From contig CANQYU010000004.1 in assembly GCA_947628145.1 (NCBI GenBank), forward strand, positions 1 to 44,473: a stretch of DNA of 44,473 nucleotides, given 5' to 3'. The notes beneath the pieces are model-generated. The model was given only the letters and a program-made list of their open reading frames with translations, was not told where the DNA came from and searched no databases. The position numbers were made by a program, and so were the translations under genes. Of the stretch, positions 13,400 through 19,305 are shown piece by piece. Position 1 is the stretch's first letter, and each line of letters begins with the position of its first letter. This DNA comes from an uncultured Bacilli bacterium (GTDB lineage: Bacteria; Bacillota_I; Bacilli_A; RF39; UBA660).

Positions 13400-14428
13400 T
13401 TATTCTTCTTTTTCTTTGGCCTCATCTAAAAAACCATAATGTTCCCGAACTTTTTTCTCTATTTCATCTCTTAATTCGGGATTTTCTTTTAAATAAATTT
13501 TTACATTTTCTTTGCCTTGACCAATTTTTTCGCCATTATAAGCATACCAAGCTCCACTTTTTTCTAAAATATCTAAAGACGCGGCAATGTCTATTAATTC
13601 TCCCTCTCGAGAAATACCTTCCCCATACATTATATCAACACAAGCAGTTTTAAAAGGCGGCGCAACCTTATTTTTTACCACTTTAATATTAGTTTTATTT
13701 CCCACTATTTGCTCGCCTACTTTAATTTGTTCGGCTCTTCTAATATCTAATCTAATAGTCGCATAAAACTTTAAAGCTCTTCCTCCTGGAGTTGTTTCAG
13801 GATTACCAAACATAACTCCTACTTTTTCTCTTAATTGATTTATAAATATTGCAGTTGTCTTAGTTTTATTAATTGTTCCCGATAATTTTCTTAAAGCTTG
13901 TGACATTAATCTTGCTTGTAAACCTACATGGCTATCGCCCATTTCTCCATCTATTTCAGCTTGAGGTACTAAAGCGGCAACCGAGTCAATAACTATAATA
14001 TTAACTGCTTCACTCCGTACTAAAGCATCACATATTTCTAAAGCTTGCTCTCCCGTATCAGGTTGAGAAAGTAAAAGCTCATTAATATCTACTCCTAAAG
14101 CTTTAGCATAAACTGGGTCTAAAGCATGTTCTGCATCAATAAAAGCAGCTCTTCCCCCTAATTTTTGAGCCTCCGCAATTGCTTGTAAAGCAATAGTCGT
14201 TTTTCCACTTGACTCTGGACCATATATTTCAATAATTCGTCCTTTAGGAAAACCTCCAACTCCTAAAGCAATATCTAAAGCTAGTGAACCACTAGATGTT
14301 ACATCAATTTTGGTATGCTCTTCACTACCAAGTTTCATTATGGCCCCAGCCCCAAATTGTTTTTCAATATCTGCTAAAACTTGCTCCAGGGCTTTATCTT
14401 TATTCTTTTCATCCTTAACTTGTTTCAT
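13400..14428 (-). CDS. recA: recombinase RecA
   Basis: [19 protein letters not shown] Walker [38 protein letters not shown]. Confidence 0.98.
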
Positions 14429-14456: not shown

Positions 14457-14507
14457 ATTTTATTATAAAAAAAAGTATTTGTCAATAGTTTTTCGAACAA
14501 ATGTATA
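14457..14507 (-). promoter_or_regulatory. recA promoter with SOS-box-like site
   Basis: TTGACA (14480-14485 rc) -17- TAAAAT (14457-14462 rc). CGAACAAATGTATA at 14494-14507, upstream of the -35. Confidence 0.6.
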
Positions 14508-15830: not shown

Positions 15831-17102
15831 ATTGTCTTCTTTAACCATTTTAACTACTACTAATTCTTTAGTATTAATTTCTTTTATTACATCTCTTACT
15901 TCTTCTATAGTAATATCTTCGTATATATCTTTTAAATCAGGAACAATATCTCCATAATAAATAATATAATTTTGAATTAAATTATTAACACTTTCGACAT
16001 CTTCATAATTAAGTACTAAAGTAGCAATCGAAGAATTAATTTTTCTCCTTAAATCTTCCTCATTTATTTCTAAATTATTTAAAGCTTGAACAATTCTTTT
16101 TACCGCTTCATCCACATATTTACTTTCAATTGTAATATCAATAATTACATAATTATCGTCTACATATCTTGCTGTATTCATAAATGTTATTAACTCATCT
16201 TTAAGCATTTCTTCTTTTAAATCTGATGTATCGCCAAAATTACTAGCTAATATAATACTTAAAATAATATTTAATTTAACTGGCGAAATTTTTTTAAAAA
16301 CTTTTCTTTCTATTTTAAGCCCTATCTTAGCTTTATCCACCTCTACTTTAGCTTTTATAGTTAAATTATTTTTAACAACTCTTCTTGGTTCTCTTATTTC
16401 TTCCCTTATTGGTTCTTTATATTCTTTAAATTTCTTTTTAGCTAAATTATCATTAACTAATTTTTCTATTTCGTAAGGTTCCACATTCCCCGTTACTATT
16501 AAAAACATATTTTTAGGATGATAAAATGTTTCATAAACTAACTTAATATCTTTTAAATTAATATTTTTAATATCTTCTATTTCTCCCGATATTAAATATT
16601 TATATTTTTCTTTATGATATATACATTTATTAAATTCATTATGTAAATTATTAAAAGGTTGGTCTTTCCCCATTTTTATTTCTGAAGCAATAATCCCCTT
16701 TTCTTTTTTTATAATTTCTTTAGTAAAAAAAGGTTCAAATACATAATCTAATAAATTATTTAAATTATCTTTTATTTTATTAGTTCCAAATACTAAATAA
16801 CTAGTATATTTATATGTAGTAAAAGCATTTATATCGCTTCCTAAAGGTTCAAATAAATCATTAGCTGTTTGATTTTTAGAAATATTAAATTTAATATGCT
16901 CCATAAAATGAGCAATTCCATTAGGAACTTTTTCCAACTTATTATTAACTTTAAATTCGGTATGAATAGAACCAAATTTTACATTTAAAGATAAATAAAA
17001 GCTTTTAGCATATTCATTTTGCCATATATAAATAGGTAATCCTTCATTAGAAACTGTATAATATATTTCTTCATCAATACCCTTTATTTTAATTTTTTCC
17101 AT
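15828..17102 (-). CDS. M16 family metallopeptidase (YmfH-like)
   Basis: Inverted zinc motif HFMEH (GIAHFMEHIKFN) and downstream EKGIIASEI. Confidence 0.88.
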   Translation of the reverse strand: MEKIKIKGIDEEIYYTVSNEGLPIYIWQNEYAKSFYLSLNVKFGSIHTEFKVNNKLEKVPNGIAHFMEHIKFNISKNQTANDLFEPLGSDINAFTTYKYTSYLVFGTNKIKDNLNNLLDYVFEPFFTKEIIKKEKGIIASEIKMGKDQPFNNLHNEFNKCIYHKEKYKYLISGEIEDIKNINLKDIKLVYETFYHPKNMFLIVTGNVEPYEIEKLVNDNLAKKKFKEYKEPIREEIREPRRVVKNNLTIKAKVEVDKAKIGLKIERKVFKKISPVKLNIILSIILASNFGDTSDLKEEMLKDELITFMNTARYVDDNYVIIDITIESKYVDEAVKRIVQALNNLEINEEDLRRKINSSIATLVLNYEDVESVNNLIQNYIIYYGDIVPDLKDIYEDITIEEVRDVIKEINTKELVVVKMVKEDN

Positions 17103-18431: not shown

Positions 18432-18524
18432 TTAATTTAATTGTAAACCTAAAGCTAAAATCCCCATAAAAATCACAAAATAAAATAATACAACTCCTCC
18501 ATAATTAACTAAAACTTTTTTCAT
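18432..18524 (-). CDS. 30-aa single-TM peptide MKKVLVNYGGVVLFYFVIFMGILALGLQLN, divergent from lexA (absent from supplied ORF track)
   Basis: RBS AGAGGTAAtattATG; promoter TTGAGC-18-TATAAT overlapped by two SOS-box-like sites. Confidence 0.65.
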   Translation of the reverse strand: MKKVLVNYGGVVLFYFVIFMGILALGLQLN

Positions 18525-18542
18525 AATATTACCTCTTTTCTA

Positions 18543-18577
18543 CGAACATTATATCGCATATACATATGTTCGCTCAA
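18543..18577 (-). promoter_or_regulatory. promoter of the 30-aa peptide with two LexA-box-like sites
   Basis: -10 TATAAT at 18548-18553 (rc), -35 TTGAGC at 18572-18577 (rc). Sites CGAACATATGTATA (18559-18572 rc) and CGATATAATGTTCG (18543-18556 rc). Confidence 0.65.
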
Positions 18578-18629
18578 TAGCAAAATTTAAATTTGACAAA
18601 TATTTTTTAAAAAGTGTCAATACACTTGT

Positions 18630-18658
18630 TTGACAATCATACGTTTTTGTGTTATTAT
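18630..18658 (+). promoter_or_regulatory. lexA promoter
   Basis: TTGACA (18630-18635) -17- TATTAT (18653-18658). Confidence 0.65.
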
Positions 18659-18678: not shown

Positions 18679-19305
18679 ATGGAAAAATTAAAACAAATAA
18701 CTGAAAAACAAAACAATGTTTTAGATTATATTAAAAAGTTTTCCGCGGAACATGGTTATCCCCCATCTATAAGAGAAATAGGAAAAGGTTTAGGCTTATC
18801 TAGCCCTGCGACTGTTCATACTCATGTGAAAAAATTATGTAATGCTGGATATTTAAAAGTTGATAATAATAAATTTAGAGCGATGGAGCTTTTAGTTGAT
18901 AATGAATATGCGGAAAAAGACGAAGAATTAGTTAAAGTTCCTCTTTTAGGAAAAATTACCGCGGGTTCTCCCATCGAAGCTATCGAAAGACCTAATGAAT
19001 TTTTTAGTCTTCCTGCCAGTTTAATTCCTGCGAAAGAAACTATTTTCACTTTAAATGTAAGTGGTGAATCAATGATTAATGCTGGTATTTATGATGGTGA
19101 TGTTGTAATTGTCCAAAAGCAAAGTACGGCGCGAAATGGTGACATCATTGTTGCCATGACTGACGCTAACGAGGTAACTTTAAAAACTTATTATAAAGAA
19201 AATGGCCATTTTCGTCTTCAACCTGAAAATGATACTATGGCCCCTATAATCTTAAATAATGTTACTGTTTTAGGCAAAGCCATTGGTTTATATCGAAAAT
19301 TTTAA
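18679..19305 (+). CDS. lexA: LexA repressor
   Basis: N-terminal HTH (PPSIREIGKGLGLSSPATVHTHVKKL), Ala-Gly cleavage site (ITAGSP), SGESM and VTLKTYYKE catalytic Ser/Lys. Confidence 0.97.
   Translation: MEKLKQITEKQNNVLDYIKKFSAEHGYPPSIREIGKGLGLSSPATVHTHVKKLCNAGYLKVDNNKFRAMELLVDNEYAEKDEELVKVPLLGKITAGSPIEAIERPNEFFSLPASLIPAKETIFTLNVSGESMINAGIYDGDVVIVQKQSTARNGDIIVAMTDANEVTLKTYYKENGHFRLQPENDTMAPIILNNVTVLGKAIGLYRKF

Follow-up and report, generated by a model that had tools for sequence, protein, structure and literature searches.

Gene content of the locus

The window, i.e. the whole 44,473-nt stretch of DNA that was analysed, carries both lexA and recA, and an unannotated ORF of 30 codons (the microgene) is placed upstream of lexA on the opposite strand (Table 1), its ATG start codon occupying positions 18524-18522. 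The ORF, its ribosome-binding site, its promoter and two LexA-box-like sites all lie where the preliminary description had located them, and the neighbour from which the microgene was said to diverge is a true lexA, as judged by its TIGR00498 score. The encoded peptide begins with a KK-containing N-terminus, after which the best 19-residue hydropathy mean reaches 2.48 (at residue 11), and it ends 2-3 residues past the end of the helix; a single-pass, N-in/C-out topology is predicted from these features. Neither the 30-aa peptide nor any of the homologues tested is matched by a Pfam or NCBIfam model, and annotation that relies on such models would therefore overlook what is probably an SOS checkpoint gene in a gut lineage.

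Table 1. Positions of genes and putative regulatory elements in the window
Feature	Position	Strand	Basis
30-aa single-helix membrane microprotein ORF (stop included)	18432..18524	-	ORF sequence; homologues opposite lexA; pN/pS
Shine-Dalgarno sequence AGAGG	18532..18536	-	sequence; GGAG-type ribosome-binding site kept in relatives
Microgene promoter TTGAGC-18-TATAAT	18548..18577	-	sequence; kept across the genus
Putative LexA box 1, CGAACATATGTATA, in the spacer of the microgene promoter	18559..18572	-	sequence; genus conservation
Putative LexA box 2, CGATATAATGTTCG, over the microgene -10	18543..18556	-	sequence; genus conservation
Putative third box, CAAACAAGTGTATT, overlapping the lexA -35	18619..18632	-	sequence; family-wide CAAACAnnTGTTyn-type site
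lexA promoter TTGACA-17-TATTAT	18630..18658	+	sequence
lexA	18679..19305	+	TIGR00498, 215.8 bits, above cut-off; PF00717 and PF01726 match
SOS box upstream of recA, CGAACAAATGTATA	14494..14507	+	sequence match to box 1
recA	13400..14428	-	confirmed as genuine

Box 1 agrees with the recA-upstream site at 13 of 14 positions, as had been claimed, and box 2 is two bases off CGAACN4GTTCG. The third, lexA-proximal box, which was absent from the earlier list of sites, is probably involved in lexA autoregulation. Exact matches to CGAACANNTGTWTW occur only three times in the whole genome: at recA, at the microgene site and on another contig (C18, positions 16342-16355), where the match stands at the start of a 114-aa ORF of unknown kind and may be due to chance. 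An exact search of the same genome for CGAACNTATGTTCG gave no match; in this genus the box has a shifted form. When up to three mismatches to the degenerate box were permitted, the AT-rich window contained 39 matches versus 44 expected; as single degenerate boxes are therefore not significant, their conservation was tested instead.

Conservation of the microgene

One hundred relatives were searched with the peptide and with LexA, and the regions upstream of lexA were then read. A homologue opposite lexA was found in 26 of the 30 members of the genus with a readable locus and in 17 of 23 other genera of the family, while in G012 and G027, two more members of the genus, the microgene is located on a contig separate from that of lexA. 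The gene is not universal, as four members of the genus and several genera are devoid of it. Over the first 26 codons of the 26 genus sequences, identity amounts to 0.71, 0.85 and 0.55 at the first, second and third codon positions, frame 0 alone is free of stop codons in every sequence, and pN/pS equals 0.44. Six residues (M1, G9, G10, Y15, F19 and G21) do not vary among 27 sequences, and V17 and I18 are nearly invariant. On this comparative evidence the ORF is a real, evolutionarily conserved gene, the product of which has a membrane segment under purifying selection; the decay that would be expected of a spurious frame was not seen in relatives, and the synteny that the preliminary description proposed to check is present within the genus and beyond it. 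A one-sided helical face, sought in the periodicity of conservation, was not significant.

In two species (G019, locus L038, and G003, locus L040) lexA and the microgene are separated by about 0.8 kb, in which a membrane-protein gene is located. The inserted gene carries an ABC_trans_CmpB domain (PF06541), and despite the insertion the SOS promoter has remained with the microgene.

Conservation of the operator

Throughout the genus the microgene promoter takes the form TTGnnCGAACAnATGTatnTgCGATATAATGTTCG, which comprises two box-like sites 16 bp apart, one in the spacer and the other over the -10. Of 36 genus genomes, 25 each contain a single copy of this 30-bp two-box element, against 0 matches in the control. 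In the other genera the -35/-10 spacer of this gene mostly contains TTGACACGAACnnnnGTTCGTG or a sequence close to it, a site of the CGAACN4GTTCG type, which is the Bacillus-type LexA box. The genus thus has two degenerate boxes (18543-18572 in the window) versus the single near-canonical box of its sister genera, and its layout is apparently a re-design of the LexA operator. Across the family, a separate box of the CAAACAnnTGTTyn type overlaps the -35 of the lexA promoter itself. Loci without the microgene also lack its operator, yet mostly retain a recognisable lexA box.

Comparative genomics strongly supports SOS control of the microgene, which DNA damage very probably turns on; we infer that LexA binds its promoter and that the gene is inducible. 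Two parts of the preliminary reading, SOS control and a conserved membrane microprotein, thus stand on comparative grounds, and its third part, the inhibition of division, is an analogy with the position, topology and promoter of YneA and SosA. A literature search combining RF39 with SOS and lexA found no papers.

Loss of the extracellular tail

In relatives the homologues are 42-53 aa long and consist of a membrane helix followed by a short tail with a loosely shared, VAINK-like C-terminus. A stop codon at about 30 aa occurs only in the window's genome (G000) and in G013, G014 and G012, which indicates that the 30-aa form is a derived, tail-less version of the longer family, a point absent from the preliminary description. 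In a tree of the neighbouring protein YfmF, G000, G013 and G014 form one clade (support 98/92) nested among tailed species, and G012 falls outside it; a single change is allowed by 1% of the bootstrap trees. The tail was likely lost twice in the genus, independently in G012, and we call this likely rather than proven because the forks near G012 are weakly supported. We considered the possibility that tail loss followed loss of the CtpA protease and rejected it, as three of the tail-less genomes (G000, G013 and G014) do have CtpA.

The three species of the tail-less clade show pN/pS values of 0.20-0.27 (Fisher p 0.0007-0.015 in three comparisons that are not independent), so selection on the helix continued after loss of the tail. 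Among nine relatives of 48 aa the ratio is 0.33 for the helix versus 0.94 for the tail, the latter figure being inflated by the ungapped comparison, so that "weakly constrained" is the safe reading of the tail. As judged by these ratios, the constraint is located in the helix also in the tailed relatives.

Other genes divergent from lexA

At the lexA locus of a Lachnospiraceae genome (L167) the place of the microgene is occupied by a TM-LysM protein, whose best match is YneA (53.5 bits, with a cut-off of 60). In two more distant members of the class (G081 and G092; loci L085 and L087) a lexA-divergent gene for a 57-aa membrane protein, which matches no family, is followed by a DUF896 gene, an order also seen in the yneA-yneB-ynzC region of Bacillus. 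This 57-aa gene stands behind SOS-like boxes. At yet another locus (L163) a LexA-box promoter about 140 bp upstream of lexA and opposite to it drives a 68-aa, soluble-looking ORF without a family match, a candidate case of the microgene's place being taken by another SOS gene.

Proposed function and alternative explanations

The SOS division inhibitors that have been characterised in Gram-positive bacteria have a single helix, and their genes are commonly neighbours of lexA (PMC6851548). The helix of YneA binds the seventh transmembrane segment of FtsW (PMC13396833). Low-confidence AlphaFold 3 models place SosA and SidA at FtsW as well (PMC13396833). FtsW-family proteins are present in the window's genome, where three SEDS candidates lie on contigs C13, C33 and C59, and on these grounds the peptide is proposed to hold FtsW during the SOS response. 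We consider it fairly probable that the microgene encodes a LexA-repressed, SOS-induced inhibitor of late division acting on FtsW, an equivalent of YneA and SosA with a helix of the size of SidA, where division inhibition and the FtsW target are suggested by analogy only. In undamaged cells LexA would occupy both operators, one in the promoter spacer and the other over the -10. Following DNA damage, RecA-triggered cleavage of LexA would open the promoter, and the 30-residue N-in/C-out peptide would be made; its helix would then most likely bind the septal peptidoglycan synthase (FtsW, by analogy with YneA and SidA) at one of the transmembrane segments, so that division would be held until repair is finished. 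With the extracellular tail gone in the window's clade, it is the helix itself that must, in our proposal, carry the activity.

The derived tail-less state matters because a LysM domain in YneA, or a tail in SosA, is essential for activity. The YneA helix alone localises and does not inhibit, YneA needs its extracellular LysM domain for activity (PMC13396833), and SosA deprived of its 30-40 C-terminal residues, i.e. its outer segment, is inactive. Consequently, the tail-less form may not inhibit division in their way: it must either act like SidA of Caulobacter, a 29-aa SOS-induced peptide that blocks division through FtsW without an outer domain (PMC4211646), or do something weaker or different. 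The latter would be the case if the helix did not itself block division and instead modulated another membrane protein (a transporter, protease or sensor), or were a degraded YneA-like septum localiser or competitor. The behaviour of the truncated YneA and SosA and the loss of the tail in the window's clade agree with such a role; however, the tailed relatives are also constrained in the helix over the tail and SidA inhibits division with little more than a helix, and we regard this explanation as unlikely.

It also seems rather improbable that the microgene encodes a membrane-active peptide of the TisB/DinQ kind, resembling a type I toxin, which would cause depolarisation and dormancy, not a specific division block. 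Size, the single helix and LexA control fit, but a search for an antisense or overlapping small-RNA antitoxin yielded no opposite-strand promoter-like site over the ORF and no Rfam match. Moreover, the invariant G9, G10, Y15, F19 and G21 suggest a specific partner, the lexA-divergent place belongs to division inhibitors, and sister forms carry an outer tail. Finally, a non-coding origin (a chance ORF, a leader peptide or part of a regulatory RNA), compatible with the shortness of the ORF and its lack of annotation-model matches, is largely refuted and extremely improbable in view of the frame-specific conservation, codon-position pattern and synonymous bias, the joint retention of promoter and ORF in the two species with an insertion, and the promoter-like site that the next gene on the strand has of its own.

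There is no settled account of the way in which small membrane proteins arrest septal wall synthesis in response to DNA damage: YneA needs LysM and SosA its outer segment. Proteins of the TM-LysM, TM-tail and TM-only kinds, found behind the same type of lexA-divergent promoter, constitute a natural series in which the sufficiency of the helix is directly testable. We tentatively suggest, as a possibility falling somewhat short of probable, that in a Gram-positive lineage a bare membrane helix may by itself be the complete SOS division inhibitor; the extracellular part essential to YneA and SosA would have been dispensable and was lost, probably twice, in this genus, which would leave a natural TM-only checkpoint peptide.

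Comparison with known SOS-induced membrane peptides

TisB and DinQ have the membrane itself as their target and are under the control of small RNAs. They share with the window peptide a similar size, a single helix and LexA control; neither the scan for opposite-strand promoters over its ORF nor the Rfam search showed a small RNA of this sort. DinQ is a known SOS-induced membrane peptide (PMC3567139).

SidA is alike in having about 30 residues, almost all of them in the membrane helix, and an SOS-box promoter, but it is proteobacterial. Its likeness in size is probably convergent, because the ancestors of the window form were longer and had a tail.

YneA of Bacillus subtilis resembles the window peptide in being encoded divergently from lexA, in its LexA-box promoter and in its single N-terminal membrane helix (the topology of the window peptide being a prediction). 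In contrast to YneA, which has an extracellular LysM domain, the window peptide stops at about the membrane, and no sequence similarity between the two is detectable. It does not match the YneA model NF010723, and no match above the cut-off of this model occurs anywhere in the genome; a candidate for a hidden YneA on contig C22 was rejected, as it is a below-cut-off LysM-repeat protein without a leading membrane helix.

SosA of Staphylococcus aureus, which adjoins lexA, has a single helix and no LysM domain and is SOS-controlled (PMC6851548), as the microgene appears to be. However, SosA has 77 aa and an essential membrane-proximal outer segment that the 30-aa form lacks; the tailed relatives match SosA in plan, although their tail is weakly constrained. 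The window peptide is thus not YneA, having neither LysM nor a sequence match, and by its anatomy it is not SosA, as there is no outer segment. It is a positional equivalent of both and probably a functional one.
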